Shown: piece by piece, positions 1,701-16,153 of the stretch
Layout of the letters: each line of letters starts with the position of its first letter
How positions within the stretch are numbered: position 1 is the first letter of the stretch
Assembly (NCBI GenBank): GCA_003153585.1
Contig: PLZZ01000099.1
Coordinates: forward strand, 1 to 18,164
Direction: 5' to 3'
DNA from: Acidobacteriota bacterium
Lineage (GTDB): Bacteria; Acidobacteriota; Terriglobia; Acidiferrales; UBA7541
Length of the DNA stretch: 18,164 nucleotides
Position numbers and translations under genes: made by a program
The notes under the pieces: generated by a model
The model's database searches: none
Told to the model about the DNA's origin: nothing
The model's input: the letters and a program-made list of their open reading frames with translations, nothing else

Positions 1701-2578
1701 GGCCGTTCCTCCGCGAAGGCCAGCGTCCGTGGCGCCTCAGCAGATACGGGCTTGCGATAAATCAAGCAATCACCAAGCCTGATGGATTCCAAATTCAGCG
1801 AAACATTCGAAAGCGTTTCCGAGTGGCCCAGCAGAAAATATCCGCCGGGCTCCAGCGCGTCATAAAAGCGGCGCAGGATCGCGAGCCGCCTTTGTTCCGA
1901 AAAGTACATCAGTACGTTCATGCAAAAAATGCAGTCGAACTTGCCGAAGTACAGCGGCTCGACCAGATTCATCTGCACGAACGAGATCATCTTTCGAATT
2001 CGCGGTCTCACTTGATATCCATGTTTCGTTGCCGAAAAATGCGCTTCCAGCTGTGCCGGCGAAACATCCTGCAAGCTGCGCTTGGCGTAGATTCCGCGTT
2101 CGGCCTGGGACAACGCACGGCGGCTGATATCGGTGGCCAGGATTTCAATCTGCCACGCCTCCGCAAATTGCAGCGTGTCGCTCAGCGTCATTGCTATCGA
2201 ACAGGGTTCTTCACCCGTCGAACATCCCGCGCTCCATATGCGAAGCGCCCGCGGGTCCTGCCAGAATTTCCGCTCCTGCACCTCGGGCAGAATCTTTTTC
2301 CTCAGCGCTTCAAACACCGCCGGATAGCGAAAGAATGAAGTCTCCTGCGTCAGCAACTGTTCCAGCAGCGCTTCGTATTCAACGACGGATCCGCGTACGA
2401 TCTGCAGCAGCTCTGTTCCGCTCTCAATATGTTTCTCGCCGAGATATTCGCGCAGCCGAGATGAAAAGAAGCGCTCGCGAGAGGAATCGAGCAAAATCGC
2501 GGAACGCTGCTCAACCAATGTGCGAATCTCGCCGAGTTCCGTCTCGGTAAGCTGCGCGGTAGTGAGATGTTGTTTCAT
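1697..2578 (-). CDS. cheR: CheR/PilK-type MCP methyltransferase
   Basis: SAM-dependent methyltransferase expected to methylate glutamates on the neighbouring receptor. Visible motifs in order: the N-terminal CheR helices, QETSFFR (family NETxFFR), the SAM-binding loop RIWSAGCSTGEEPCS, ATDIS, then FCMNVLMYF and GGYFLLGHSETL near the C-terminus. The family form FCRNVLIYF has Arg where this protein has Met220. I chose the ATG at 2578 (293 residues); a GTG three codons upstream at 2587 is equally possible, and neither has a clear Shine-Dalgarno sequence. It lies about 50 bases after the MCP stop and overlaps cheA by 4 bases. The position between MCP and CheA matches pilK in Pil-Chp operons. Family call firm; start uncertain. 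Confidence 0.92.
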   Translation of the reverse strand: MKQHLTTAQLTETELGEIRTLVEQRSAILLDSSRERFFSSRLREYLGEKHIESGTELLQIVRGSVVEYEALLEQLLTQETSFFRYPAVFEALRKKILPEVQERKFWQDPRALRIWSAGCSTGEEPCSIAMTLSDTLQFAEAWQIEILATDISRRALSQAERGIYAKRSLQDVSPAQLEAHFSATKHGYQVRPRIRKMISFVQMNLVEPLYFGKFDCIFCMNVLMYFSEQRRLAILRRFYDALEPGGYFLLGHSETLSNVSLNLESIRLGDCLIYRKPVSAEAPRTLAFAEERP

Positions 2579-2629
2579 GTTCGGCACGCATCAGCGGCCG
2601 GCTTTTTCGCCGACCACTCCGGCACACCG

Positions 2630-4072
2630 TTAACGATGCGCCCCCACTGGAGCCGCCGGCCGCGTTTCCTCGGATGCAGCCGTTTCCGGTCGGCCGGACT
2701 GCGAACGAAATTGCGCGAGCGCTTCGTTGAGCTGCTCGGAGAGCTTCACCATGTTGCCTACGGTCGAAGCCGTCTGCCGCGCACCCTGCGTGGTCTGGCG
2801 CGTGATGCCGGAAATGATCTGCATGGCATTTGCCACGCCTTCTGTTCCGCGTACCTGCTGCTTCGACGCGAGCGAAATTTCCTGCACCAGCTCGGCGGAT
2901 TGGCGTACAACGCTTGAAATGGCTTCCAGCGCTTTTCCGGCTTGGTCCGCCAGTCCCGCTCCCACCTCCACCTCGCGGGTACCTTCTTCCATTACTACGA
3001 CGGCTTCGTTTGTCTCGGCCTGAATGGCTTTAATGAGTGCGGCGATGTCCTTGGTGGCGCTGCGGGAGTGTTCGGCGAGTTTGCGCACTTCGTCCGCGAC
3101 GACCGCGAAACCTCGGCCTGCTTCTCCGGCGCGCGCCGCCTCGATGGCAGCATTGAGCGCCAGCAAATTCGTTTGTTCGGTGATGTCGTTAATCACGTTG
3201 ATGATTTCCGAAATTTCTAGTGAACGATCACCCAGGGATTTGATTTTCTTGGCGGTCGCTTGCACCGAAGCGCGAATCCGCTGCATACCATCCAGCGTAT
3301 CGCGCACCGCGCGGTTGCCTTGTTCCGCGGCATCCAGCGCGCGACGAGCGGCTTCCGCGCTGGCTTCCGCGTTGTTCGACACTTGCTTCATCGAAACCGT
3401 CAATTCCTCCACGGCCGATGACGTGTTGGTGATTTCCTGGTCTTGTTGCGTAGCGCCTGCCGTCATGTCGTCTGCGGCTTCCAGAATCTGATTCGCGCTG
3501 GTGCTGACGTCGACCGCAGCCTTGCGCACGCGTTCGAGAACCTTGGTGAAGTTGTCGAGCATGAAGTTCACGGAGTCCACGACGTTGCCCAGAGCGTCGT
3601 TGCTCACCTTGCCGCGGATATTCAAATCGCCTCGCGCCACTTGGCTGATGGTGTTCAGCAAATCCGTGATGCTGCGCTGAAGCGAATCCTGCGCTTGTTG
3701 ATTCGTTACCGCATGGGCCACTTTCGCGGCGCTGCGATTGAAATTCTCCGCGATAAATCCGAACTCGTCACTGGTTCCGATTTCCACGCGCGCGCGTACG
3801 TCGCCGGCCACCAGCCGTTCGGAAAACGTGGCAATCTCCTGTACCGGGGTCAGCACACGCTTGCCCAGCACATAGATGAGCGAGACGGCGGCGAGAATCA
3901 CCAGCGCGGCCGCCGCGACCAGCGCGCCATTCGCGCCACCGGGGAACGATGTGGCATCGGCGCCTACCGCTGCGTGTGCGCCAGCGTAATACGCTAGCCC
4001 CAGCACGCCAAAAAGTGCGGCGCCGATCCAGAGGACCAGCAACCAAATTGTCGAACTCAAACGAGCTTTCAT
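2630..4072 (-). CDS. Methyl-accepting chemotaxis protein, PilJ-like, double HAMP, almost no periplasmic part
   Basis: Inner-membrane chemoreceptor of 480 residues. TM1 spans about residues 8-32 and TM2 about 50-72, separated by only about 17 residues, so there is no folded periplasmic sensor. After TM2 come a HAMP domain ([20 protein letters not shown], with DEFG) and a second HAMP-like segment ([17 protein letters not shown]). The cytoplasmic signalling coiled coil contains the hairpin tip core [20 protein letters not shown] followed by [15 protein letters not shown]. No C-terminal CheR-tethering pentapeptide is seen (it ends APVGAHR). I chose ATG 4072 because GGAGG sits 5 bases before it; an in-frame TTG four codons upstream overlaps that Shine-Dalgarno sequence. 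The 113 bases before it (4073-4185) show no convincing promoter. It sits between CheW and CheR, as pilJ does. It may sense membrane state or a partner protein rather than a periplasmic ligand (inference). Confidence 0.93.
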
Positions 4073-4185
4073 GACTTCCTCCAAAGAACTTGTTTACCGC
4101 GCGACCCCCACTGCGAATCCTGAACCTTGAACGGCCGGAGAACTGGCCTCATTTGTGCTCAGCTAAAACTCCGCGACGCAATTCT

Positions 4186-4716
4186 TCAAATTACCGGAAC
4201 CGGAAAAACATCAGTCAGCCGCCGGAGATCCACCACCAGCGCAAGCCGGTCGTCATGCCGCAGCATTCCGCGGCAATGCGGCACTTCGGCGGGCGCTTGA
4301 TCGAGCATCGATTCTTCGGTGGCGGAATACGTGCCGATCACTTCATCTGCGGCAATGCCCAGCCGCAAATCCCCGCGCTGCGAGTCGCTCTTCAATGCCG
4401 CAACCACTACGTGTTTTGGCAGTAGACCGGGGCGCCGGCCTTCTGTGAACGCAATGTCCACCAGCGGAACGATTGTTCCGCGCAAATTGAAGACACCCAT
4501 CAGAAACGCGGGCGCCAGCGGCACTCGGGTCACGATTGGCCAATCCACCACTTCCTCCACTTCCAGGACAGAAAAACAAAAGCGCTCGCGGCCGGCGCGA
4601 AAAACGCAGTATTGCCGTTCTGGCAGCCGCTCTTCAGCCAGCGACTCGCTCTCGAGAAACTCGCCCCCGGCGAGTTCCGCGTGCGACAGCACCAAGTTTT
4701 CGCGCTCGTTCGGCAT
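4186..4716 (-). CDS. cheW: CheW/PilI-type coupling protein
   Basis: Adaptor that would link the MCP (2630-4072) to the CheA kinase (1-1700) in the chemosensory array. It has 176 residues: an acidic N-terminal extension of about 35 residues, then a CheW fold recognisable from YCVFRAGRERFCFSVLEVEE, FLMGVFNLRGTIVPLVDI and the terminal LALVVDLRRLTDVF. The NLRG segment is the family's most conserved motif. The ATG at 4716 shares its A with the TGA of the CheY gene (TGATG), and AGAGG lies 8 bases upstream; the TTG one codon earlier is less likely. The position after CheY and before the MCP matches pilI/pixI. Confidence 0.92.
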   Translation of the reverse strand: MPNERENLVLSHAELAGGEFLESESLAEERLPERQYCVFRAGRERFCFSVLEVEEVVDWPIVTRVPLAPAFLMGVFNLRGTIVPLVDIAFTEGRRPGLLPKHVVVAALKSDSQRGDLRLGIAADEVIGTYSATEESMLDQAPAEVPHCRGMLRHDDRLALVVDLRRLTDVFPVPVI

Positions 4717-5078
4717 CAAGCAAACCTCTTTACCGCGCTCAGCAATTCATCCGGTGTGAAGGGTTTGGCCACGTAGCCATTCGCGCCTTGCTGTTCGCCC
4801 CAGTAGCGATCGCTGGGCGCTGTCTTGGAAGTCACTAAGATCACTGGAATCTGCGAATACGATTCGTGGTTCTTCAAATCGCGACAAGCCTGAAATCCGT
4901 TCCGCTGCGGCATCACCACGTCCAGCAGAATCACGTTCGGCCGCTCTTCCTCTATCGCTTCCTCAATCTTTGTCGGATCAGAGATGCCTACGGAATAAAA
5001 GCCCCCCTCCTGCAACATGTTTTGCATCAGCCGGATTTCGGCCAGCGAATCATCCACAACTAGAATTTTCTTCAACAT
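4716..5078 (-). CDS. CheY-like single-domain response regulator, PilG/PilH type
   Basis: A 120-residue receiver with no output domain, the likely phosphorylation target of the CheA at 1-1700. All active-site residues are present: Asp9/Asp10, phospho-acceptor Asp53 (VILLDVVMP), Thr83 (ILVTSK) and Lys105 (VAKPF). The segment DRYWGEQQGANGYVAKPF resembles PilH/PixH more than flagellar CheY, as I recall those families. The start at 5078 has a well-spaced GGAGG at 5086-5090, with a second GGAGG nearer. First gene of the Pil-Chp-like operon, directly downstream of a -24/-12 promoter at 5113-5130; it overlaps cheW by one base. Output is probably twitching motility or another pilus function (inference from class; no pilus gene is in the window). 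Confidence 0.93.
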   Translation of the reverse strand: MLKKILVVDDSLAEIRLMQNMLQEGGFYSVGISDPTKIEEAIEEERPNVILLDVVMPQRNGFQACRDLKNHESYSQIPVILVTSKTAPSDRYWGEQQGANGYVAKPFTPDELLSAVKRFA

Positions 5079-5112: not shown

Positions 5113-5130
5113 TTGCAACTCGGTAGCCAC
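5113..5130 (-). promoter_or_regulatory. Sigma54 (-24/-12) promoter of the Pil-Chp-like operon
   Basis: On the minus strand the sequence reads GTGGCTACCGAGTTGCAA: TGGC, seven bases, TTGC, giving the diagnostic GG-N10-GC spacing and matching the consensus TGGCAC(G)-N4-TTGC at both cores. The predicted transcription start is near 5101-5104, about 25 bases before the ATG at 5078, leaving room for the Shine-Dalgarno sequence. It lies in the 131-base gap (5079-5209) between the pseudo-kinase gene and the CheY gene. Confidence 0.75.
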
Positions 5131-5144
5131 CACGCGCGACAAAT

Positions 5145-5157
5145 TCTCGTCCTGCGA
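5145..5157 (-). promoter_or_regulatory. TCGCA-N4-GAGA element upstream of the Pil-Chp-like operon
   Basis: The minus strand reads TCGCAGGACGAGA. This matches the core of the 17-base elements at 8062-8078 and 12047-12063 (TCGCA-N4-GAGA) but is diverged outside the core. It lies only about 15 bases upstream of the -24 box, closer than a usual enhancer site, so this is the weakest of the three copies. Confidence 0.4.
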
Positions 5158-5209
5158 ACATCTCGACATCCCCATGTATCGACTACCTTTACGAACCGCT
5201 TTTTCGTTC

Positions 5210-5917
5210 TTACGACCCGGATACCAGATGATGAGAACCTTCGGGCGTATCACCTTGAGACTCTTTCTCACCGGCTCGCATCTCGGCGGCGAGCGATGAG
5301 AATCGCTGCATGATTTCGTGCAGCCGCAGAGCCATAGTGTGAACCGTTCGAATTTGATCGCGACATTCAGCAGTCACTTGTTCCGGTTCCAGCAGCAACA
5401 AATCCGCGTTCCCCAATATGGAGGTCAGCGCGTTGTTCACGCTGGGACGCATTTCGAGCATGTATCGGCCAAGGGTCGCGTGCCCCTGGCTCTCAATCGC
5501 GAGGCGTTCGGCACGCTGAGCCCTGGCAACGGCCTGCACTCGCCGCAGCGCCTCACTGGCCACAAGAATTAATGTTGAAGTCCAGCCATCCTGACGCGGC
5601 ACAACCTGCAAGTGCGGATGTTCGGATTGCAGGAACGAAATTTCTTTCTCATCGTCCGAAACACAAACGGTTGTAATGTTTGGATAAGCGCGCAAGGCAG
5701 AGAGGATTGCGGAAGTCTTGCGCTCACGTACGGGTCCCAGAATTACCAGGTCGTAGCTCGCGGCGCTCGAACCATGCCAGACGTCGCTGGTGACCAGCGC
5801 GATTTCCGGAACGTGCCGCTCCGCGTGCCAGCGCGCCGCAACCGATCGAGCAAATTCCGTGTCGTCCGAGACAATCAGGACGCTGGCCTGACTCAAGTGG
5901 TCCCCCGTTCGCTTCAA
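5210..5917 (-). CDS. Pseudo-receiver plus pseudo-DHp protein (phospho-residues missing)
   Basis: A 235-residue protein. Residues 10-125 resemble a receiver: VLIVSDDTE keeps the acidic pair, but the phospho-acceptor position reads DLVILGPV, with Gly61 where Asp is expected, and no clear K-P motif follows. Residues 146-210 resemble a histidine-kinase dimerisation helix: GRYMLEMRPSVNNALTSILG aligns with the H-box pattern GRLAAGVAHEINNPLTAILG, with Pro158 replacing the phospho-His. No HATPase domain follows. It therefore looks like a non-phosphorylatable dimeric scaffold or anti-kinase (inference). It begins 2 bases after the stop of the 527-residue protein. The start is a TTG at 5917; another TTG seven codons in, after GGGGGA, is possible. 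A weak 5-base hairpin (5191-5207) follows the stop. Family assignment rests on motif alignment by eye. Confidence 0.72.
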   Translation of the reverse strand: MKRTGDHLSQASVLIVSDDTEFARSVAARWHAERHVPEIALVTSDVWHGSSAASYDLVILGPVRERKTSAILSALRAYPNITTVCVSDDEKEISFLQSEHPHLQVVPRQDGWTSTLILVASEALRRVQAVARAQRAERLAIESQGHATLGRYMLEMRPSVNNALTSILGNADLLLLEPEQVTAECRDQIRTVHTMALRLHEIMQRFSSLAAEMRAGEKESQGDTPEGSHHLVSGS

Positions 5918-5919
5918 TC

Positions 5920-7503
5920 TTAAGGCTGAAGTTTTTCCGCTTCCTCAATGGTGGAAAGCAGACGCTTCGTGCTGATCCCTAAATTCACCGCGGCTTCCGT
6001 ATTCTTTGCGCGCTTCGCCTGTTCCACGCGGCCCTGAAAGTAGGAAACTTCCGTCCGGGCCAGTACAAGCGCGGATGCAAGTTGACTCAAGTCGCCGGAA
6101 CGTTTTCGCTGGTCCATCGCGAGGCCTAGCAATGCCCGTGCCACCACGGCTCGCCGAAGGTCTTCCGCTTCCTGCCCGCCGTCCGCCACGAAAGCGCCTA
6201 CCTCCCATGACGACAGCAAAACCTTGGTGTCCTGCAGCACGACCGTGGACATGGAGCGCCCACGCGAAGGAGGAGCAGCAATCAGTTGTTCCCAGATTCC
6301 CTCGAGGCACTTTTCCATTTCCGCGGTACTCGTCGCCGCCGCCGGGCCATCGTTAGCAGAGTTCGCAGGCTGGCTCACCGCTGGAGGAATGCTTGGCGGC
6401 CTTGGAGCCGGCACATTCGCATCTTTCCCGGCTTCCGTGTTTTTGGGCGCTGGGGCATTGGACGGCGAAACTTGTACTGCTGCCGGAGCAGGCGTGGCCA
6501 AGACTGCCGGCCGTTTTTCTCCGTCATCCGGGGAAGCGACCGCACTCCGCACAACCTCTTCGGAAATCGTTGCGGAAGACTTGCTGGCATTCGGTGACCC
6601 AAGCGCCTCTTCGAGATCGGCGCGCAGCGCGAGCAATTGCTCGAAAGCCCGCCTTACCGAACTCGCCGTATAGTCTTTATGGAAGGGCTGGCGCCAGTTT
6701 TCGCAGTAATAGCGAAGCTGAATGGTCGTTTCAGCGGCAGAAAATCCCGCGCGCCTGCAGTCCACGGTTTTCACGCCGCTGGAATCGAGAGCTTCCACGG
6801 CTTGTTGCACGGCGCTCAAGTCCGCGTGGAGCAAACGAATGAACGCCCGCCGAAGCAGAAAATTGAAGCGGCAAAACGCAATCAGGGCTGCCGGATCGTA
6901 GAACAAGGGACCGGCGGATTCCTTCAGCAATCGCCCTTGTTCCAGCAGGCCATGCTCCATCATGTCGCGCAAGCTCTGGCACTGCGCGATTTTTCCAAGG
7001 ATCTGGTCCAGCGGGGCGCACCATTCCAGGGACGCGACATCCGCCTCGCCCAGCACGGGTCGCAGAACCTGCGCGACGTCATCGAGTCCAATATCTTTGC
7101 GATAAAGGTCCTCGGGAGCGCACAACGCGAAGTACTGCACCAGCAGCAAATCGATTTTGTCGCGGTCGGCTGGTGTCTTTTCCTGTTTCTTCAACTGCCG
7201 TTGCAGAAAGGCCCGCAACCCCTCTTCGCTGGCGTTGAGTGTTTCCGGAGGAAGCTGGCGAATTTGAAACGCGCGCAGGTTTTCGTCAATTGTGTCGAAC
7301 CATTTCAGGTCTGCGTCAAATACATCGCGCGTGGGCCGCTGTGGTGGCAACTCGCCCGCAGGATGCGGAAGCGGAGCGAGATTGAACTGCGTCGCCAGCG
7401 CTGCGTACAAGGAGTAAGCAAGACGTGCCTCGCTCCATTGTGTGGCAAAGTCGGAAGGACTTACGACGTTTCCTGAATTTGAAACATTCGTGTTTGTCGT
7501 CAT
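5920..7503 (-). CDS. Unknown 527-residue, mostly helical protein
   Basis: I do not recognise this family. Residues 1 to about 300 look like an all-helical domain rich in Leu, Ala, Glu and Arg. Residues about 300-395 are a low-complexity Pro/Ala/Ser linker (for example APAPAAVQVSPSNAPAPKN). Residues about 400-527 form a second helical domain ending in a probable coiled coil (RVEQAKRAKNTEAAVNLG). No signal peptide, membrane segment or catalytic motif is visible, so it is likely cytosolic. The ATG at 7503 overlaps the stop of the PilZ-like gene (ATGA), so the two are probably translationally coupled; longer in-frame starts reaching 7596 would run into that gene and are unlikely. It is followed by the pseudo-kinase gene. 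Context suggests an accessory or adaptor of surface signalling (inference). Confidence 0.8.
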   Translation of the reverse strand: MTTNTNVSNSGNVVSPSDFATQWSEARLAYSLYAALATQFNLAPLPHPAGELPPQRPTRDVFDADLKWFDTIDENLRAFQIRQLPPETLNASEEGLRAFLQRQLKKQEKTPADRDKIDLLLVQYFALCAPEDLYRKDIGLDDVAQVLRPVLGEADVASLEWCAPLDQILGKIAQCQSLRDMMEHGLLEQGRLLKESAGPLFYDPAALIAFCRFNFLLRRAFIRLLHADLSAVQQAVEALDSSGVKTVDCRRAGFSAAETTIQLRYYCENWRQPFHKDYTASSVRRAFEQLLALRADLEEALGSPNASKSSATISEEVVRSAVASPDDGEKRPAVLATPAPAAVQVSPSNAPAPKNTEAGKDANVPAPRPPSIPPAVSQPANSANDGPAAATSTAEMEKCLEGIWEQLIAAPPSRGRSMSTVVLQDTKVLLSSWEVGAFVADGGQEAEDLRRAVVARALLGLAMDQRKRSGDLSQLASALVLARTEVSYFQGRVEQAKRAKNTEAAVNLGISTKRLLSTIEEAEKLQP

Positions 7504-7982
7504 GGTTTGATAATCCAGTTGTCGATATGTCCCACAAAACGCGCCGCGACGGCTTTCCGGCCGTCGTGATACCTCACCGCAACAACTGTGGCCCACGCAT
7601 CCAGCGACCCGTCTGAGTTGAGCATGCGGACACGATCTTCGAACTCTAACGGCAAAACCGACGAGAATAAAACCTCATGCGCTGTGCCGAATTCAATTAC
7701 GGTCTGTTCCTGCAGTCGTTTGCGGCCAATGCCCGTCGTCAGAACTCGCACGGGTATGCGCACCGGCGAAATTCCGGTAAAAAGTTGCGCTAATTTCTCA
7801 ATGCAAGTTTGACCTTGGAAAGCGACCGCTACTTCGGTTTCACTCAGCACAGGATCCCAATCCTTTCGCTCTCCGCAGTCTGCTAGAGGCTCATGCCCCA
7901 GGGGCGCGAACAGAGCGAGCGCAGCAACACCACGAATGAAAGCGGAAAACTGCCCCAGTAGGGAATGCACATGAACAGCCAA
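7500..7982 (-). CDS. Divergent PilZ-like domain protein
   Basis: A 160-residue protein. The C-terminal 90 residues have an alternating beta pattern (RIPVRVLTTGIGRKRLQEQT ... EVLFSSVLPLEFEDRVRML ... AWATVVAVRYHDGRKAVAARF ... WIIKP) resembling PilZ-type barrels. Such domains bind cyclic di-GMP when they carry RxxxR and (D/N)xSxxG; here RKRLQEQ is only Arg-like and no clear (D/N)xSxxG is present, so nucleotide binding is doubtful. The N-terminal 70 residues are unassigned. The start is unclear: TTG at 7982 gives the longest frame but has no Shine-Dalgarno sequence, and a GTG at 7970 is an alternative. First gene of the 7982-5210 operon, with the TCGCA-N4-GAGA element about 80 bases upstream. It could be another small beta-barrel domain. 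Confidence 0.6.
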   Translation of the reverse strand: MAVHVHSLLGQFSAFIRGVAALALFAPLGHEPLADCGERKDWDPVLSETEVAVAFQGQTCIEKLAQLFTGISPVRIPVRVLTTGIGRKRLQEQTVIEFGTAHEVLFSSVLPLEFEDRVRMLNSDGSLDAWATVVAVRYHDGRKAVAARFVGHIDNWIIKP

Positions 7983-8061
7983 AGATTTTCAGGAGATTAG
8001 AATATTAAGTGATTTTATTTCATGCTATTGCAAGATGTAGAGCGCAGGTTTCGTCTCGCGA

Positions 8062-8078
8062 CGTCTCAGTGTGCGACA
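8062..8078 (-). promoter_or_regulatory. 17-base element, copy 2 (TGTCGCACACTGAGACG)
   Basis: The minus strand reads TGTCGCACACTGAGACG, identical at 15 of 17 positions to the element at 12047-12063. It lies in the 168-base gap between the end of the NtrC-family gene (8151) and the PilZ-like gene (7982), pointing toward the latter. It overlaps a perfect 11-base palindrome, GACACAGTGTC, at 8075-8085. Likely an operator or enhancer site; the bound protein is inferred to be the neighbouring NtrC-family activator. Confidence 0.55.
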
Positions 8079-8120
8079 CAGTGTCTCATCGCCAGGCGTA
8101 ATTCGCGGACGTGAATCTAG

Positions 8121-8138
8121 AAACGGACTTTACCGTTT
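8121..8138 (-). terminator. Small inverted repeat after the NtrC-family gene, possible weak terminator
   Basis: AAACGG-N6-CCGTTT forms a perfect 6-base stem 12 bases after the activator gene's stop. There is no U-tract beyond the stem on the minus strand, so any termination would be inefficient; it may be incidental. Confidence 0.25.
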
Positions 8139-8150
8139 GTCGTAAATCGC

Positions 8151-9548
8151 TCAGGACGCCATGCGCACATGCTCTCTGTGGGCCGACCGCAACGGAATAT
8201 TGTAAAGTTTGAGTTTTCGATACAGCGTAGCCCGGCTGATACCCAGCATTCTTCCCGCGAGCGCCTTATCGCCTCCCGCCTGTTCGAAGACGCGCAATAT
8301 GGTCATGCGCTCCAGATCAGACAACGCGGTTGTAGAGAGCTCGGAATCGGAAGCTTGCGATTTACCCTCCGGCGCCACGCGAACGGCCGGCGGCAGATCG
8401 CCTACATCAATCGTGTGATGGTCCCCCAGCGCAACGGCGCGTGCGATGCAATTCTCAAGCTCTCGCACATTTCCGGGCCAGTCATATTGCAGGAAACTCT
8501 TCATCGCGTCCGCCGTCACCTGGATATTTTCTCCCGGCGCATAGCGGTCCAGGAAACAATGCGCCAGCTGCGGTATATCGGAGCGGCGTTCTCGCAAGCT
8601 GGGCAAGTGCACGGTGACAACATTCAAACGAAAATAGAGGTCCTTGCGAAACGTGGCAGCGCGATAGGCGGATTCCAAATCGCGGTTGGTCGCGGCAATC
8701 ACTCGGACGTCCACCGGAACTTTCACATTGCTGCCGACGGGCCGCACTTCTTTTTCCTGCAACACGCGCAGCAGCTTGGCCTGCAACTCCAGAGGCAATT
8801 CACCGATCTCGTCCAGGAAAATGGTTCCGCCGTTCGCTGCTTGAAAAAGGCCCGCTTTCGTTTTCAGCGCGCCGGTGAAAGAGCCCTTTTCGTGGCCAAA
8901 AAGCTCGCTTTCCATAAGCGTTGGAACCAGGGAGCCGCAGTCCACGGCGACGAACGGCATTTGCGCCAGAGGTCCGCGGAAATGAATCGCTCGCGCCACC
9001 AGTTCTTTTCCCGTGCCGCTTTCCCCCGTGATCAGCACGGGTGTGCGCGTTTCCTTAAGCCTGGAAATCATTCGCATCACATCTTCGATCTTTACCGAGG
9101 TCCCCACGATTCCGTCGAGCTGTGTTTCCGTGCTCACGCGCTCCCGCAGGAATTGATTCTCCGTCACCAGGCGAACTTTTTCGGCCATGCGCTGCAGAAG
9201 CTGTCGTAGCCGCTCCACTCGAAACGGTTTTTCAATGTAATCGTATGCGCCTTGGCGCATGGCTTCCACGGCGGACTCGATGGATCCATGCCCGGTCATG
9301 ATGGCGGTCTCCGCGCGCGGCAATTGCTCGCGGATTTTCTTGAGCAACTCCGTCCCCGAGAGGCTGGGAAGCTTCAAGTCGGTGACCACGATGTCGGGCG
9401 GTGTTGTGTCCAATGATTCGAGAGCGGACTCGGCCGTCTCAGCCTCGGTGCAGACGAAACCCAGTCCTTGTCCCACGGTCATGCACAGTCGGCGAATGCT
9501 TTGTTCATCGTCCACAATCAAAAAGCGGAGTTTTGATTCGTCTCTCAT
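8151..9548 (-). CDS. NtrC-family sigma54-dependent response regulator
   Basis: A 465-residue enhancer-binding protein that would use ATP to open sigma54 promoters. The receiver (about residues 7-120) has phospho-acceptor Asp57 (VVTDLKLP) and Lys107 (YIEKPF). The AAA+ domain has Walker A GESGTGKE (175-182), the sigma54-contact loop GSFTGA (222-227; canonical GAFTGA), Walker [13 protein letters not shown] (Asp246/Glu247), an arginine-rich [14 protein letters not shown] and [11 protein letters not shown]. The C-terminus is a Fis-type helix-turn-helix ([20 protein letters not shown]). I chose ATG 9548 because it overlaps the stop of the receiver gene (ATGA); an upstream extension to 9614 lies inside that gene. 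Partner of the kinase at 9946-11934. Targets are inferred to be the -24/-12 promoters at 5113 and 12214. Family certain; targets inferred. Confidence 0.95.
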
Positions 9549-9949
9549 GGTTTTCCAATTGTCTTTTCCACCGCGGCCATCAGCTGATGAACGCGGAAGG
9601 GTTTTTCCACGCAAGGTGTCCCGTTTTGCGCAAGTAACGCCACCGTCTCGGCGCTCGCCGTATCACCCGTAATGAAGATGATTCGCGACGCCAATTCCGG
9701 CCGGTGGCGCAACAGCCAGTCATGAACATCCGCGCCGGTGATTCCCCCGGGTGTCCGAAAGTCCGAAATCACCCCGCGAAAATCCCCGGTGGCGAGTAAT
9801 TGCAATCCGTCGATGGCGGACGCAGAGGACGTGATTTGATAACCCCGCCGTTCCAGCGCCGTGCGCAGAAATGCAGCGACGGATGGCTCGTCCTCGATCA
9901 ACAAGATGCAGCCGTTCGTCAGTGCGGCGGCCGCGTCAGAACTCGTCAT
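9545..9949 (-). CDS. Stand-alone receiver domain protein
   Basis: A 134-residue receiver with no output domain. Active-site residues are intact: Glu19-Asp20 (LLIEDEPS), phospho-acceptor Asp63 (VISDFRTPGG), Thr94 (FITGD) and Lys116 (VEKPF). The FRTPGG after Asp63 resembles receivers attached to the C-terminus of hybrid kinases, so this may be a detached hybrid-kinase receiver (inference). Start and stop both overlap neighbours by 4 bases, the kinase upstream and the NtrC-family regulator downstream, so the three are made together. It could be a phosphate sink, a competitor of the activator, or a partner of the chemosensory proteins. Confidence 0.92.
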   Translation of the reverse strand: MTSSDAAAALTNGCILLIEDEPSVAAFLRTALERRGYQITSSASAIDGLQLLATGDFRGVISDFRTPGGITGADVHDWLLRHRPELASRIIFITGDTASAETVALLAQNGTPCVEKPFRVHQLMAAVEKTIGKP

Positions 9950-11934
9950 TGGGCGCCACTTTCTTCGTCGGGGGGCGCAGTGCCCTTCGCAATTGGCAGC
10001 CGCACGACAAAGGTAGATCCAATTCCGTCTGAATTGTTGCGCGCCGAAATTTCTCCGCCATGCGCTCGCACGATGCCATAACAGATGCTGAGTCCCAGAC
10101 CTGTGCCTTTGCCTACTTCCTTGGTGGTGAAAAAAGGGTCGAAAATGCGGTCGGGGTGGGAAATACCTGTGCCATTATCGCGAAATATAATCTCGATTAA
10201 TCCGTCCCGATGCGACGATCGAATTCCAATTTTTCCCTGGCGGCGCGTTTCATGAACGGCGTCATAGGCGTTATTCAATATGTTCAGAAAGGCCTGTTGC
10301 AATTGGTGCGGATCTCCTATGATCATCGGCAATTCCGCGTCGTAATTTTCCACTAACTCCACTCCGTGGTTCGAAAGATCGTATGCGCGAAGCTTCAGCG
10401 TCTGTTGCAAAATGGAATTTACCTGCAGCGGCTCGCGCTGTGCCGGCATCTGCCGCGCAAAACTGAGCAAATTCTGCACGATCACTCGCGTTCGCTGCGC
10501 TTCCTGCAAAATCACGCGCAGATCTTCCTTCGCGTTTTCCGGGACGTCTGTGTTTTCCAGCAGAAGATCCGTAAATCCGACGATTGCCGCGAGCGGGTTG
10601 TTCACTTCGTGGGCCACGCCGGAGACCAATTGTCCGAGCGCGGCCATCTTTTCCGTGTGCATCAATTTCGCCTGCAGGTCGGCCGCATCAGTGATGTCCG
10701 TCATCACCACTACCACGCTGTTAATGTCCCCTTGTTCGTCGCGCATCGGGCTGAGGCTTACCGAAAACTGCCCCGTACTGCCGTTTCCGCGGGAGAGTGG
10801 AATCTCGAGATTATCGAGCGCCGCGCCTTGCAATGTGCGCTCCAGTGCTTCCGCAAGCAGCGGGCGGCGCGCCGGCGCCACCATCTGAACGAGCGAATGT
10901 CCCAGCAAATCCTGTTCGCGGTAACCGGCCTCAAAGCAGCGGCGATTGGCATAACTTACCAGGCCCGCGGTATCCAGCACGAGAATCATGCTCTGGGTAT
11001 TGTTTAGAATATTTTTGTTGAAGTCGCGCTCCCGCCGGTAGCGGCGCTCCGCCGTGCGGCGGTCGGTAATATCTTTTAGCACGTGAATCGTGCGCAGCTC
11101 GTCTTTGGGGCCACCGTGTATGCGCGAAGCAGAAACCAGAAATGTCCGGTCGGCGGACTCATGAATGAATTCTTCATGCACCGCTTGCGAATTCCTGCAG
11201 AACGGGCAATAGCCCGGTTGTGCTGGTGATGAGAGCAGTTCCAACGCGCCCATATCGCGGCCGATAACTTCTGTGGGTCGAAGCTCCAGCAAGTCTGCAA
11301 GCGCGCGATTGAGACGCAGGACGCGATTCGCCGCGTCATGCACGATGATGTAATCTGAAATGGCGTCAAAATCCTGGACCCATTGCTTGCGGGATTGTTC
11401 GATCCGGGAAAATAGCCGGACATTCTCCAGCGCCACCGATGTGTGGCTGGCAAGCGCTTCCAGTAATTGCCGCTCGGCAGGATAAAGGTCACGCGCCAAA
11501 TCGACGAGACACAGCACGCCGAGCAGCTCTGCTTCGCTGCCGTAGAGCGGCGCGAGCACCAATCCCTTCCAGCCTAGCGACTCGGCTAATCCAGCTCCCA
11601 GCAGACGTTCCGCTAATCCCGTGCGCAAATCAGAACCGAGGCCAGTGGCCTGCTCGGCAAGCGTCCCAGCCAGACGATGCTGAGTCATCGCGTCCCAGCG
11701 ATGGGCTGGCCCGCTGAGCGCCGCAATCTCCCAATCAGACTCGCGTGCCACTACCAAGACCGCGGATCGAGCTCCTAACATTTCCGCCGCGCGCGCAGTC
11801 AGCCGCCGCGCAAACTCCGGCTTGTCCAGTGACGGGTTAAGTTCCAGGGTGGCGGCGGAGAACTGCGCCAGAAGGCTCTCGAAAGAGCCATCGAGACGAG
11901 TTGAGACTTCGCGAGTTCGTTTCAATGCACGCAT
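9946..11934 (-). CDS. Soluble GAF-PAS-PAS histidine kinase
   Basis: A 662-residue sensor kinase with no membrane segment, hence cytoplasmic sensing. Domains in order: GAF (about 25-170, ending LASHTSVALENVRLF), PAS-1 (about 185-300, containing the Cys pair C243-P-F-C246), PAS-2 (about 305-420), then HisKA with phospho-acceptor His442 in LGQLVSGVAHEVNNPLAAIV, and HATPase with NNAYDAV, FRDNGTGI, FDPFFTTKEVGKGTGLGLS. The start at ATG 11934 has no good Shine-Dalgarno sequence. The stop overlaps the receiver gene (ATGA). It should phosphorylate the NtrC-family regulator at 8151-9548 and possibly the intervening receiver. The signal is unknown; a redox or metal input through CPFC is conceivable. 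Membrane-bound PilS, the kinase of pilus-associated PilR, is differently built, so this is not PilS. Confidence 0.95.
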   Translation of the reverse strand: MRALKRTREVSTRLDGSFESLLAQFSAATLELNPSLDKPEFARRLTARAAEMLGARSAVLVVARESDWEIAALSGPAHRWDAMTQHRLAGTLAEQATGLGSDLRTGLAERLLGAGLAESLGWKGLVLAPLYGSEAELLGVLCLVDLARDLYPAERQLLEALASHTSVALENVRLFSRIEQSRKQWVQDFDAISDYIIVHDAANRVLRLNRALADLLELRPTEVIGRDMGALELLSSPAQPGYCPFCRNSQAVHEEFIHESADRTFLVSASRIHGGPKDELRTIHVLKDITDRRTAERRYRRERDFNKNILNNTQSMILVLDTAGLVSYANRRCFEAGYREQDLLGHSLVQMVAPARRPLLAEALERTLQGAALDNLEIPLSRGNGSTGQFSVSLSPMRDEQGDINSVVVVMTDITDAADLQAKLMHTEKMAALGQLVSGVAHEVNNPLAAIVGFTDLLLENTDVPENAKEDLRVILQEAQRTRVIVQNLLSFARQMPAQREPLQVNSILQQTLKLRAYDLSNHGVELVENYDAELPMIIGDPHQLQQAFLNILNNAYDAVHETRRQGKIGIRSSHRDGLIEIIFRDNGTGISHPDRIFDPFFTTKEVGKGTGLGLSICYGIVRAHGGEISARNNSDGIGSTFVVRLPIAKGTAPPDEESGAQ

Positions 11935-11976
11935 GGAGGTTTGGGGGCTGCGCGCGATTCTTACTTACCGATAAAG

Positions 11977-12006
11977 ACGTTACGGCCCAATCTCATTTTG
12001 AGTCAA
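11977..12006 (-). promoter_or_regulatory. Possible sigma70 promoter for the kinase/receiver/activator operon
   Basis: The minus strand carries TTGACT, 18 bases, then TAACGT, about 43 bases before the kinase ATG. The -35 is good and the -10 poor (three of six, including the key first, second and last positions). No GG-N10-GC is seen on this strand, so this operon does not look sigma54-dependent. Confidence 0.3.
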
Positions 12007-12046
12007 GCGAACTGGCGTCGGCTGTTTCGTAACACGCAATCGGGTC

Positions 12047-12063
12047 TGTCGCAGGCTGAGACG
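12047..12063 (+). promoter_or_regulatory. 17-base element, copy 3 (TGTCGCAGGCTGAGACG), putative activator site
   Basis: Imperfect palindrome TGTCGCAG-G-CTGAGACG (6 of 8 arm positions complementary), about 150 bases upstream of the -24 box at 12214, a typical enhancer distance for NtrC-family proteins. It matches copy 2 at 15 of 17 positions. Half-sites TTGAGACG (12087) and CTAAGACG (12140) follow in the same orientation at 31 and 53 bases, close to whole helical turns. Confidence 0.55.
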
Positions 12064-12148
12064 ATAGAAGGGTCGAAGCGAGCGGGTTGAGACGACGCTG
12101 GGTTATCAGGACCTCATCCTGGGAAGTCTGACAAAGACTCTAAGACGC

Positions 12149-12213: not shown

Positions 12214-12230
12214 TGGCACCCTTCGTGCAA
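12214..12230 (+). promoter_or_regulatory. Sigma54 (-24/-12) promoter of the TonB-C/MCP/CheWRA operon
   Basis: Reads TGGCACCCTTCGTGCAA: a perfect TGGCAC -24 box and TGCAA at -12 with exact GG-N10-GC spacing. The predicted start is near 12240, about 30 bases before the ATG at 12271, leaving room for the GGAGG Shine-Dalgarno sequence. Confidence 0.82.
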
Positions 12231-12270: not shown

Positions 12271-12630
12271 ATGAAGTCGAAGATGGGAATGATTGGCTTG
12301 GGGCTGGCACTTCTTTTAGGTGAATCGCTCGCTCTGCCGCCAAAAGGATCCGCACAGGAAAATTCAACGGACGCGAACAAGCGAAAAGTACGCACTCGAA
12401 TAGTTCCTGATTATCCTTCGCTTGCCAAAGAATATAACGTTTCAGGAAAAGTCAAGATTGAGGCCAGCGTCGCGGCCGACGGCCACGTGAGCGCTACAAA
12501 AGTAATCGGCGGGAGCCCGTTGCTTGTGAATTCTGCGCTCGACGCAGTGAAAAGATGGCGTTTTGAAGCAGCACCGAAAGAAACATTGGAAACTGTGGAA
12601 TTCGAATTTAACGGCCAGGGCGCCAGATAA
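12271..12630 (+). CDS. Secreted TonB C-terminal domain protein
   Basis: A 119-residue protein. Residues 1-29 form a Sec signal peptide (MKSKMGMIGLGLALLLGESL) with a likely cleavage after GSA, before QENS. Residues about 46-115 match the TonB C-terminal fold: PDYPSLAKEYNVSGKVKIEA, VAADGHVSATKVIGGSPLL, ALDAVKRWRFEAAP. Classical TonB carries an uncleaved N-terminal anchor and a Pro-rich spacer; both are missing, so it cannot transmit ExbBD energy in the usual way. GGAGG lies 7 bases before the ATG. It heads a chemosensory operon just after the sigma54 promoter, so it may be a periplasmic partner of the MCP at 12689-14692 or of an outer-membrane receptor (inference). Confidence 0.87.
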   Translation: MKSKMGMIGLGLALLLGESLALPPKGSAQENSTDANKRKVRTRIVPDYPSLAKEYNVSGKVKIEASVAADGHVSATKVIGGSPLLVNSALDAVKRWRFEAAPKETLETVEFEFNGQGAR

Positions 12631-12635
12631 CTAGC

Positions 12636-12653
12636 CCGCTCGAATGCGAGCGG
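12636..12653 (+). repeat. Intercistronic hairpin CCGCTCG-AATG-CGAGCGG
   Basis: Perfect 7-base GC-rich stem with a 4-base loop, 5 bases after the TonB-C stop and 35 bases before the MCP ATG. No T-run follows, so it is not a standard intrinsic terminator. It may stabilise the upstream message or set the ratio of TonB-C protein to chemosensory proteins (inference). Confidence 0.55.
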
Positions 12654-12688
12654 AGGCCCTTGCAAGTGGGGGAGTGGAGGCGGCACAC

Positions 12689-14692
12689 ATGACAATAGGA
12701 AAGAAGCTCTATCTCGGATTTGGCGCTGTTCTCGCGATCATGCTGGTTTTGTTCATCATCAATATTTTCACCGTTCGGCGCGAATACATCGCTCGTTCTA
12801 CGGTCGCTTCGACCCTGTCCGACGTGAAGGCGATTGAGACCGTACGCTTTCAAATGATGGAAACACGTTTGTATCTCGGAAATTATCTCCTGAGTGGCGA
12901 TGTCCGCGACGAAGATAAAACCAACAAGGGCGCCAATGAGCTTTCCGAGATTCTAAAGGACGCCGAGTCCAAGGTTAACGATGCAAACCTGAAAACCGCT
13001 TTTGTTCAAGTGGATGAAGGAGAACGCAGCTGGCTTGAGGATTTTGCCAAGCCGATGATCGCTAAACGCCACCAGGTGGACGCAGGCGACGCCACGGTCT
13101 CTGATCTACAGATTTATTACCTTCAGCACGATCCCAATTCCTGGTTTAACAAATCCACAGCGGTACTGGACGAGGCCAATCTGTCCGTGCGCAAGACGCT
13201 GGACGATTCCAACTCATCGGCCGCCTCCGCCACCGCATTGAGCACCATCATTACGACTGTGGGCACATTCCTCGCGATTCTGTTGGGTGGATTCATCGCG
13301 TTCGCTACCGCGAAGTCAATCAAGGAGCCTCTGTATCACCTGATTGAAGTGGCCCATCGTATCGGGGAATCCGGCGACCTCGATCAGTCCATTGATATTC
13401 ATCGCGATGATGAGGTGGGCCTGCTCGCTTCAAATTTCAACAAGATGATTGTCCACTTGAAGGACATGGCGGCCGTCTCTGCGGCGATTGCGGAAGGCCA
13501 GTTGTCGGTGTCCGTCCTGCCCCGCTCCCCGCAAGACACCATGGCCTTGGCCTTCACCCGCATGACGCATGGATTGCGCGAACTTGTCCGGCAGGTCCGC
13601 GACAGCGCATCGCAAGTAGCCAGCGGTTCCGGGCAGATGGCCAGCGCTTCCGATGAATCCGCGAAAGTAAGCGTGCAGGCGGCATCGGCCATTGATGAAG
13701 TCACCAGCACGATGCACGAAATGAGCATCAACGTGCAAAACGTGGTCAAGAACACGCAGGTGCAAGCTTCCAGCGTCGCCGAAACTTCCGCTTCCATCGA
13801 TCAGATGGTGACTTCGATTCAGCGCGTTGCGGATACGGCGAAGCTGCTGGTGGATATTTCGCATCGGTCGCGCGAAGAGGTCCAAACCGGAATGGTCACC
13901 ATGGACAAGGCCACCGAGGGACTAAACCGCACGAGTCACGCGATCCAGTCCTCGGCCGAAATTATCGACGTGCTTGGCCGTCGCGCGGACGATATCGGCA
14001 AAATTATCGAAGTGATTGATGATCTTGCCGAACAAACAAACCTTCTGGCCTTGAACGCCGCGATCGAAGCGGCGCGCGCCGGTGAACACGGATTAGGCTT
14101 CGCCGTCGTCGCCGAAGAAGTGCGCAAGCTCGCTGAAAAATCCACACAATCCACCAAGGAAATTTCCGAACTGATTCAGGGCATACAGAAGGAAGCGCGG
14201 GAAGCCGTGGATAACATGGAAAAGAGCACCAGCATGGTGCAGGAAGGCCTGCTGTTGAATAAAGACCTCAGCTTCGCGCTCGAAAAAATTTCCGACGTTG
14301 TTTCCGAGGTTTATAAGTTCTCGCAGGAAATCGGAGCAGCGACTACCGAACAATCCAGCGGCTCCACGCAAATCGCCAAGGCCACCAATCGACTGACTGA
14401 AATTACGCAAGAGATTAATTCTTCAGTCGAAGAACAGGCCTCCGGAGCGCAAGGCGTTGTGCGCGCGATGGAAAAAATGCGCGAGCTTGTGCAGCAATCC
14501 ACTTCGAGCTCGACAGAATTGGCGGCGGCAGCGGAACAAATGTCCAAACTTTCCCGCGCGCTCCTGGAATCGATGGACCGTTTCGTGCTCGACGAGGGCT
14601 TCGTCGACGGCCGGCGTCAACCCTCTCGGCGCCCGTCGCCTGGTTCGGAGCGGCCGGCACGGCAGGAGTATGCAGAACTAACACGCTCGTAA
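12689..14692 (+). CDS. Methyl-accepting chemotaxis protein with helical periplasmic sensor
   Basis: A 667-residue chemoreceptor. TM1 is at about 8-28, a periplasmic helical region of about 155 residues (29-183) is consistent with a four-helix bundle sensor (4HB_MCP type), and TM2 is at about 184-206. HAMP follows (SIKEPLYHLIEVAHRIGESG, with DDEVG), then a second HAMP-like segment (MAAVSAAIAEGQLSVSV), then the signalling coiled coil with the tip core [20 protein letters not shown] and FAVVAEEVRKLAEKS. The C-terminal tail is basic and disordered, with no NWETF-like CheR tether. I chose ATG 12689 because GGAGG lies 8 bases upstream; the in-frame start at 12644 would fall within the hairpin loop and lacks a Shine-Dalgarno sequence. 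Followed 18 bases later by cheW. The ligand cannot be read from the sequence. Confidence 0.95.
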   Translation: MTIGKKLYLGFGAVLAIMLVLFIINIFTVRREYIARSTVASTLSDVKAIETVRFQMMETRLYLGNYLLSGDVRDEDKTNKGANELSEILKDAESKVNDANLKTAFVQVDEGERSWLEDFAKPMIAKRHQVDAGDATVSDLQIYYLQHDPNSWFNKSTAVLDEANLSVRKTLDDSNSSAASATALSTIITTVGTFLAILLGGFIAFATAKSIKEPLYHLIEVAHRIGESGDLDQSIDIHRDDEVGLLASNFNKMIVHLKDMAAVSAAIAEGQLSVSVLPRSPQDTMALAFTRMTHGLRELVRQVRDSASQVASGSGQMASASDESAKVSVQAASAIDEVTSTMHEMSINVQNVVKNTQVQASSVAETSASIDQMVTSIQRVADTAKLLVDISHRSREEVQTGMVTMDKATEGLNRTSHAIQSSAEIIDVLGRRADDIGKIIEVIDDLAEQTNLLALNAAIEAARAGEHGLGFAVVAEEVRKLAEKSTQSTKEISELIQGIQKEAREAVDNMEKSTSMVQEGLLLNKDLSFALEKISDVVSEVYKFSQEIGAATTEQSSGSTQIAKATNRLTEITQEINSSVEEQASGAQGVVRAMEKMRELVQQSTSSSTELAAAAEQMSKLSRALLESMDRFVLDEGFVDGRRQPSRRPSPGSERPARQEYAELTRS

Positions 14693-14710
14693 AGGCGCAT
14701 ACGTCTCAAC

Positions 14711-15211
14711 ATGGATAAAGAACTTCAGGTTGTAGGCTTCCGCATCGGGCGCGAGACTTTTGGCGTGCCGATCTCGTTGGTCCGCGAGATCGTGCGCGTG
14801 CCGGAAATAACCTCCGTCCCGAACGCGCCCGAATACATCGAAGGCGTCATCAATCTTCGCGGCCGGATCATTCCGGTGGTGGATTTGCGAAAGCGATTTC
14901 GCGAAAACGTGGCGGCGCCCACCAAGAAAAACCGCATCGTGGTAGTCGAAGTGGAAGGCCGGCTTATCGGTTTGCTCGTGAATTCAGCATCCGAAGTCTT
15001 AAGGATACTGCCTTCGGAAATTGAAGCCCCGCAGGATGTTTTCCAGGAAGGCGAGTTGAACTACATCACCGGCGTTGGGAAATTGCGTGGGCGCCTGGTA
15101 ATCCTGTTGGACCTTAACAAGATTTTGCAGCGCGGCGAACTTCGCCGCCTGGACGAAACCGCCGAATTGGTCGGCGCCGGTCCGGTGATCGGCACGAAGA
15201 GGGAACTCTAG
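14711..15211 (+). CDS. cheW: CheW coupling protein
   Basis: A 166-residue single CheW domain linking the MCP at 12689-14692 to the CheA at 16150. Motifs: VGFRIGRETFGVPISLVREI, VPNAPEYIEGVINLRGRIIP, VVDLRKRF, and LRGRLVILLDLNKIL near the C-terminus. Length is typical. No strong Shine-Dalgarno sequence precedes the ATG, so translation probably depends on ribosomes finishing the MCP gene 18 bases earlier. It is closer to canonical CheW than the copy at 4186-4716. Confidence 0.95.
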   Translation: MDKELQVVGFRIGRETFGVPISLVREIVRVPEITSVPNAPEYIEGVINLRGRIIPVVDLRKRFRENVAAPTKKNRIVVVEVEGRLIGLLVNSASEVLRILPSEIEAPQDVFQEGELNYITGVGKLRGRLVILLDLNKILQRGELRRLDETAELVGAGPVIGTKREL

Positions 15212-15244
15212 GCTTAGCCAGAAAGCGACGACATCGAGGAACGA

Positions 15245-16153
15245 ATGTCCACCACACTCGCGACGCAGGTACCACTCACGGAAGCCGAGCTGAAGCTCTT
15301 GCAGACATTGGTGTACCAGGAGTGCGGTATGTACTTTGACGAACGCCGCACCCATTTCCTGCGCGACCGCTTGCAGCGCCGCCTCAAGGCCTGCCAGATG
15401 GATTCTTTCTACAGTTACTACCGTCTGCTCACGAGCCGTGAGGGCAAGCAGGAACTCATCTCGCTGCTCGAAAACCTTACAGTGAATGAGACAAGTTTTT
15501 TCCGCTTGCGCCCGCAGCTGGAGCTTTTTCAAAAAGTCATTCTCGAAGATATTTTGAAACGCAAACAAGAACGGCGCGATTGGTCGCTGCGCATCTGGAG
15601 CGCCGGATGTTCCACAGGACAGGAGCCCTATACGCTCGCACTGCTCGTGTGCGATGCCCTCGCCTACTATTACCTAAGGAACCCGCTTCCGTTCGAGATG
15701 CCCACGCCGAAGCCGCTGATTCCTCCGCCCTGGAAAGTCGAGATCCTGGCGTCGGATATCAACTATTCGGCGCTGCTCACAGCGCAACAGGGAATCTACA
15801 CCGAAGCGCAGATGGAGACCGTCGATTACACCTGCCGGCTACGCTATTTCGAAAAAATTGGCGACAAGTATTTAGTCAAGCCGGCGCTCAAAAATTTAGT
15901 TCAGTTCGATTTTCACAACCTGAAGACCGAATATCTTCCCCAGCGCAACGACGCGATTTTCTGCCGCAACGTCATGATTTATTTTGACGAACCTGAGCAA
16001 AAGCGGCTGATTGACAAGTTCCATCGCTGCCTGAATCCGGAAGGCTATCTTTTCGTGGGACACGCCGAGAGCCTCTTCGGCCTCACAGCGAAGTTCCACA
16101 TGATCCACCAGAACAACGCGACCGTGTATCAGAAAGTCGAGGGGGCCAAGTGA
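15245..16153 (+). CDS. cheR: CheR MCP methyltransferase
   Basis: A 302-residue SAM-dependent glutamate methyltransferase. Motifs in order: NLTVNETSFFRLRPQLELF, the SAM loop IWSAGCSTGQEPYTLAL, ILASDINYSALL, AIFCRNVMIYFDEPEQKRL (with the family Arg) and LNPEGYLFVGHAESLFGL. A short Pro-rich insertion (EMPTPKPLIPPP) sits between the SAM loop and the DIN motif. GAGGAA precedes the ATG at good spacing. The stop overlaps the cheA start as GTGA, the same junction as in the other cluster. Expected to methylate the MCP at 12689-14692; no cheB is in the window. Confidence 0.95.
   Translation: MSTTLATQVPLTEAELKLLQTLVYQECGMYFDERRTHFLRDRLQRRLKACQMDSFYSYYRLLTSREGKQELISLLENLTVNETSFFRLRPQLELFQKVILEDILKRKQERRDWSLRIWSAGCSTGQEPYTLALLVCDALAYYYLRNPLPFEMPTPKPLIPPPWKVEILASDINYSALLTAQQGIYTEAQMETVDYTCRLRYFEKIGDKYLVKPALKNLVQFDFHNLKTEYLPQRNDAIFCRNVMIYFDEPEQKRLIDKFHRCLNPEGYLFVGHAESLFGLTAKFHMIHQNNATVYQKVEGAK

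Follow-up and report, generated by a model that had tools for sequence, protein, structure and literature searches.

Activators of the NtrC family bind enhancers, inverted repeats that lie some 80-200 nucleotides (nt) upstream of -24/-12 promoters. The NtrC protein of Escherichia coli acts from such an enhancer upstream of sigma54 promoters, and the same protein represses a sigma70-type promoter; its operator sequence and its targets differ from those of the locus described here. This locus is a stretch of 18,164 nt (the window, G000:C34:1-18164) from a 3.28-Mb, 74% complete genome of an Acidobacteriota bacterium, in which the gene of an NtrC-type activator lies amid two chemosensory operons and an operon headed by a PilZ-fold gene. 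The regions upstream of these three operons (gaps 1 to 3) carry a 15-bp dyad, GTCTCA-N3-TGAGAC, which, judging from sequence comparisons, is very probably the operator of the NtrC-family regulator encoded at 8151-9548 and the mark of a small sigma54 regulon.

In the Che3 system of Myxococcus xanthus, CheA3 and CrdS jointly set the phosphorylation of the NtrC-type activator CrdA (PMC3510030). The window resembles this system in that a kinase and an NtrC-type sigma54 activator stand beside chemosensory genes, but the evidence presented here bears on an activator controlling the synthesis of two chemosensory clusters, and the likeness is one of gene arrangement. NmpR, an NtrC-like protein of the same species, binds the promoter region of its own operon as well as a site inside the pilS coding sequence, located upstream of a putative sigma54 promoter, and thereby influences motility genes (PMC6211767). 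Both a site in coding DNA (dyad 1, below) and one in the activator's own promoter region (dyad A, below) have a precedent in NmpR, although its targets differ from those proposed here and the string "palindrom" does not occur in the main text of that paper. In Desulfovibrio vulgaris, most sites of NtrC-type and other response regulators are described in the main text of PMC3333781 as 4-6 bp inverted repeats 3-8 bp apart, a layout that the window dyad fits with its 6-bp repeats 3 bp apart, and regulons were found there by the same comparative logic as here (PMC3333781, PMC4641369). The main texts of these two papers, which give motif logos only in figures, contain neither GTCTC nor GAGAC. Among the literature matches listed, there was no report of an operator GTCTCA-N3-TGAGAC or of such a regulon in Acidobacteria, and a term search of the main text of a 2025 paper comparing sigma54 regulons (PMC12316311) found no mention of Acidobacteria.

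The dyad was defined by aligning the gaps of our locus with those of 30 syntenic genomes, namely, 17 of the same genus and 13 taken from the 30 further genomes of the family in which a match had been obtained; the named relatives are Acidobacteria metagenome-assembled genomes, including palsa isolates and one Candidatus Acidiferrales. A locus missing from the count for a given gap, out of these 31 with our own, has no such region on its contig or no recognised gene. Allowing one mismatch at most, the dyad is present in 25/27 orthologous regions at gap 1, 28/30 at gap 2 and 27/27 at gap 3 (means in shuffled sequences, 0.01, 0.04, and 0.03, respectively), and allowing two, in 26/27, 30/30, and 27/27. 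The copies of the window are dyad 1 (GTCTCAAGGTGATAC, 5247-5261, minus strand), which has one mismatch, dyad 2 (GTCGCACACTGAGAC, 8063-8077, minus strand), and dyad 3 (GTCGCAGGCTGAGAC, 12048-12062, plus strand). Over 80 sites, a tally that omits L058 and sites having more than two mismatches, 66 mismatches fall in the promoter-distal half and 5 in the proximal half. Dyad 1 lies inside the last codons of the open reading frame (ORF) 5210-5917, the third codon positions of which are conserved at 0.80 (n = 10) in the segment 5245-5275 versus 0.53 (n = 51) upstream in the same ORF (Mann-Whitney p = 0.0035).

Downstream of each dyad lies a sigma54 -24/-12 promoter, identified by its pattern and by comparison with orthologs: TGGCTACCGAGTTGCA (5114-5129, minus strand) ahead of the receiver-CheW-methyl-accepting chemotaxis protein (MCP)-CheR-CheA operon, TGGCTGTTCATGTGCA (7966-7981, minus strand) ahead of the PilZ-fold operon, and TGGCACCCTTCGTGCA (12214-12229, plus strand) ahead of the TonB_C-MCP-CheW-CheR-CheA operon. 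All three fit GG-N10-GC with a TGGC/TGC context that is conserved in orthologs, and the pattern TGGC-N7-KTGCA, which was composed after the promoters had been seen, matches nothing else in the window and reached three matches in none of 200 shuffles. In nearly all relatives, the best or second-best sigma54-like match is found at the corresponding place, gap 1 of L079 being an exception. Measured from the dyad start to the -24 box, the dyads of the window lie 132 (gap 1), 96 (gap 2), and 166 nt (gap 3) upstream, distances that fall within the range of NtrC-family enhancers. With -24 boxes chosen automatically, this distance is 129-134 nt in 25/25 regions at gap 1, 96-98 nt in 25/28 at gap 2 (the remaining three giving 77, 146, and 203), and 163-166 nt in 24/27 at gap 3 (the others giving 153, 154, and 17). 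A third half-site accompanies each of the three dyads. It reads TGAGA 18 nt upstream of the second half of dyad 1 (5266-5270, minus strand), where it forms invariant columns in the genus alignment, and TGAGAC 20 nt upstream of the second half of dyad 2 (8083-8088, minus strand) and 31 nt downstream of that of dyad 3 (12088-12093, plus strand). Its place is held at 18 nt upstream in 25/26 dyad-bearing regions at gap 1 (21 in L071), at 18-22 nt upstream in 30/30 regions at gap 2 for TGAGA, and at 30-32 nt downstream in 26/27 regions at gap 3 for TGAGAC (21 in L074). Dyads, half-sites, and sigma54 promoters, with the spacing and the conservation that they show in two families, are computational observations. 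As to the sigma factor, PF04552 matched rpoN above the cut-off in 4/4 genomes searched. The rpoN gene of the window's own genome (G000:C168:16949-17348) is read in two frames and leaves a portion of its DNA-binding domain unmatched, and in three relatives this domain is in one frame; the two-frame gene could be an assembly error.

The system extends beyond the family of the window. An ortholog of the activator at E <= 1e-170 was detected in 86/399 sampled genomes of the class, 63 of which belong to the family of the window and 23 to a single second family, from which 21 loci were studied (G351 and G381 omitted). In this second family, the gap-3 dyad is present at two mismatches or fewer in 20/21 loci (16 at one or fewer), and a dyad with at most one mismatch precedes the PilZ/kinase-like operon in each of the 17 stretches holding it, five of these operons lying 3-8 kb from the activator gene. 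The gap-1 dyad is found in 4/7 loci having the receiver gene, plus two loci with the MCP gene directly next. Activator and target operons adjoin in most loci of both families. In G036 and G024, however, a target operon and the activator are on different contigs, the 7-8 kb next to the operon contain no activator gene, and the dyads are kept; G119 and L195-L198 likewise show a dyad accompanying a target operon distant from the activator gene. Since relocated operons retain their dyads, the dyad follows the targets and not the activator gene. A genus in which the activator match ends near residue 400 (g51) was considered as a natural test and failed, the helix-turn-helix (HTH) being present after an insertion.

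Another dyad, with two mismatches, precedes the activator operon itself. This dyad A (11990-12004, minus strand) lies over a TTGACT -35-like box (TTGACTCAAAATGAGA, 11991-12006), and the stretch 11990-12006 is our candidate autoregulatory operator. The form TTGACTCA-N3-TGAGA is exact in 25/27 loci of the own family and 21/21 of the second family; with one-letter variants in L072 and L084, it amounts to 48/49 loci tested overall. In second-family loci, the kinase is recognised from 0.1-1.7 kb beyond dyad A onward, but its reading frame extends without a stop to within 14-100 nt of dyad A, or past it (L182, L186), so that dyad A still directly precedes the kinase. Even where about 2.6 kb separates dyad A from dyad 3 (L180), dyad A stays beside the kinase frame. 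This conserved position suggests that dyad A is an autoregulatory site of the activator operon.

Genome-wide counts relate the dyad to the activator as well. With at most one mismatch, the own genome contains 7 dyads, 3 of them within the window, and 3 control matches. The 49 genomes with an activator ortholog (E <= 1e-150) hold 302 dyads versus 192 control matches, and the 72 genomes without it hold 174 versus 241; a Mann-Whitney test on the dyad-minus-control differences of these 121 genomes gave p = 4e-8, a value that is only a guide given that the genomes are related. Two of the four own-genome dyads outside the window were examined, one on C15, flanked by a LuxR-type regulator and an M28 peptidase, and the other on C245, near a squalene-hopene cyclase gene; neither has a properly spaced sigma54 match, and further regulon members in the own genome are unsupported. 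In four genomes of genus g5 (G050, G058, G061, and G062; loci L132, L134, L135, and L136), a GGDEF gene is preceded, always at the same position, by an exact dyad, together with a GG-N10-GC promoter-like sequence that was found by alignment and was not listed by the automatic, TGG-requiring scan. We regard this GGDEF gene as a probable fourth member of the regulon in these genomes. A fifth candidate from the same genus (G045:C211) was rejected as non-homologous, and the GGDEF homologs of the own genus have no dyad, even at two mismatches, within the flanks fetched. In a genome of another family (G073; L138 and L139), we noticed two exact dyads, possibly of a related regulon; an NtrC-type gene with 49% identity and a comparable recognition helix lies about 1.1 kb from one of them. 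Scanning viral contigs for the activator returned 8 loci, all 40-48% identical, which were not used as evidence.

The original prediction for this DNA had started from another element, the word TCGCA-N4-GAGA (TCGCANNNNGAGA), noticed by eye in three intergenic regions and read as the signal of a three-operon local regulon of the activator. A pattern scan confirmed that the window holds exactly three copies (5145-5157, minus; 8064-8076, minus; 12049-12061, plus) and that the 17-mers around the last two (8062-8078 and 12047-12063) agree at 15/17 positions. Such copies were rare in 200 dinucleotide shuffles of the window (mean 0.31; one shuffle reached three), and among words of 5+4 letters with a gap of 0-10, this one alone occurs in all three gaps and solely in intergenic DNA, a type of word that arose in 1/60 shuffles of the intergenic pieces. 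That the word itself is the signal, with 5145-5157 as a true site, is nevertheless hardly credible. The genome-wide scan that had been called for returned 22 copies over 3.28 Mb; a reversed control gave 12, and a 9-base word sought on both strands should occur about 25 times. At one mismatch, the window has 7 against 7.5 expected, that is, chance. The copy at 5145-5157 is not kept by relatives: of the 27 gap-1 stretches, those that contain the exact word are our own, the near-identical L058, and, with the word at other places, L068 and L077. This copy, four mismatches away from the dyad and 16 nt upstream of the -24 box, was rejected as a site and stands outside the system, the conserved copy being dyad 1, about 100 nt further upstream and coding. 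Taken alone, TCGCA-N4-GAGA is therefore a suggestive coincidence, at chance level genome-wide, and we do not retain it as an element. The other two copies sit on real dyads (8063-8077 and 12048-12062), the word being part of a dyad variant, GTCGCA-N3-TGAGAC, seen in gaps 2 and 3. Thus, the claim that all three sites are intergenic holds for the word copies and not for the real sites, and conservation, absent at 5145-5157, is found at the dyads. The idea of a three-operon local regulon survives with a different element and one different site, on the strength of conserved -24/-12 promoters and of dyads at conserved spacing in two families. The most pessimistic reading, according to which the shared words arose by chance or through the base composition of intergenic DNA, could invoke the selection of the original word by eye and its lack of genome-wide enrichment; it is contradicted by the conserved dyad, spacing, and half-site in two families, and we give it practically no credence. 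An eye-found word thus led to a real signal though it was wrong in detail.

In the mechanism that we propose, a dimer of the Fis-type domain of the 8151-9548 protein would bind GTCTCA-N3-TGAGAC, aided by the nearby third half-site, and the activator would act from 96-166 nt upstream of the three sigma54 promoters. Once phosphorylated, with the neighboring kinase (9946-11934) as the probable donor, it would assemble and open these promoters, so that the two chemosensory operons and the PilZ-fold operon would be switched on together, and dyad A, over the -35-like box of a housekeeping-type promoter, would most likely limit the activator's own synthesis. The identity of the binding protein, activation, autorepression, and the source of phosphate are what we infer from the patterns described above. 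One could object that the dyads and the sigma54 promoters are real but are used by another NtrC-family activator encoded elsewhere, the local one controlling something else. The own genome contains 65 loose, first-look NtrC-family candidates, any of which could bind the dyad, and the RATLYRKL helix motif is shared by a protein from another family that is 49% identical. We nonetheless judge this objection improbable, given that the dyad stands directly ahead of the activator operon in 48/49 loci, that an average excess of dyads is seen only in genomes having this ortholog, and that activator and targets are neighbors in most loci of both families. The first two of these observations favor the local activator. 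A further reason is that the recognition helix keeps SRATLYR in 34/34 activator orthologs listed, the helix varying elsewhere (K/R, I/L).

Several observations, in addition to the 65 candidates, weigh against the proposed mechanism. L079 has no dyad at gap 1 even at two mismatches. In L162 (G057), whose activator shows 68% identity, the dyads of gaps 2 and 3 each carry two mismatches, and the usual form of dyad A is absent. In the second family, L194 has no gap-3 dyad apart from dyad A, and the gap-1 dyad is absent in 3/7 loci having the receiver gene. Some ortholog-less genomes exceed their control (G031, 5 versus 2; G112, 4 versus 0). Furthermore, of 28 genomes selected for the absence of the activator, 27 are also without the operon-1 MCP (E <= 1e-90), and since the two are absent together, presence alone does not distinguish the activator from the other genes of the cluster. 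Finally, the -10 sequence after dyad A is TAnnnT-like or CGTAAC-like and mostly matches TATAAT at 3/6 positions; given this poor match, we only infer a housekeeping promoter and repression through dyad A.

As the original prediction had it, an NtrC-family activator with a Fis-type domain is encoded between the sites: the 8151-9548 protein (minus strand) combines a receiver, a sigma54 AAA+ domain, and a Fis-type HTH (Pfam PF00072, 3.7e-26; PF00158, 3e-68; PF02954, 2.9e-10), and its translation contains GSFTGA and GESGTGKE, which we take to be a GAFTGA-type loop and a Walker A motif, respectively. Its gene comes last in a minus-strand operon, after those of a GAF-PAS-HisKA-HATPase sensor histidine kinase (9946-11934) and of a single-domain receiver (9545-9949), both identified by domain search. 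The lone receiver has no tblastn match in several relatives holding that stretch (e.g., L065, L067, L074, L075, L079, and L080) and may be optional.

The next minus-strand operon, target operon 2, starts with the PilZ-fold gene (7503-7850), whose product has no Pfam family match even at E 5; its fold rests on an AlphaFold2 model (pLDDT 83.9) for which the top PDB matches are PilZ proteins. The mechanically called ORF 7500-7982 starts too early (7982): the gap-2 promoter overlaps that start, which implies that the gene begins further downstream, probably at GTG 7850. It is followed by the gene of a conserved, mostly helical protein of 527 amino acids with a variable middle (5920-7503, minus strand), for which profile and fold searches recognised no family: no Pfam or NCBIfam match at E 0.001 and no PDB fold at E <= 0.001, the latter result carrying little weight as the middle of the model is of low confidence. 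The third protein (5210-5917, minus strand), whose gene holds dyad 1 at its 3' end, has EMRPSVNN at the expected phospho-acceptor His region, no ATPase domain, and a Pfam HisKA match at E 0.06, and it looks like a degenerate histidine kinase; relatives of it are present in both families. Target operon 1 runs on the minus strand from 5078 to the window edge and consists of a receiver gene (4716-5078, domain search) followed by the genes of CheW, MCP, CheR, and CheA (3-4719). Target operon 3, on the plus strand, begins with the gene of the TonB_C-domain protein (12271-12630), and those of MCP, CheW, CheR, and CheA (12644-18162) extend to the other edge; the window cuts CheA in both operons.

Together, these data provide a defined operator, a regulon, and precise targets for mutation for a sigma54 activator of Acidobacteria, and they tie two chemosensory clusters and a PilZ-fold protein to one regulator. 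From dyad 1, we propose that an enhancer has been retained within a coding sequence across a family. A closed loop can also be imagined, which we consider rather doubtful: the two Che arrays would feed phosphate, directly or via the lone receiver (9545-9949), to the very activator that turns on their production along with that of proteins related to cyclic di-GMP (the PilZ-fold protein and, in some relatives, a GGDEF protein), while the activator would restrain its own promoter via the weaker dyad. If this were true, what the sensing machinery perceives would determine how much of it the cell makes.

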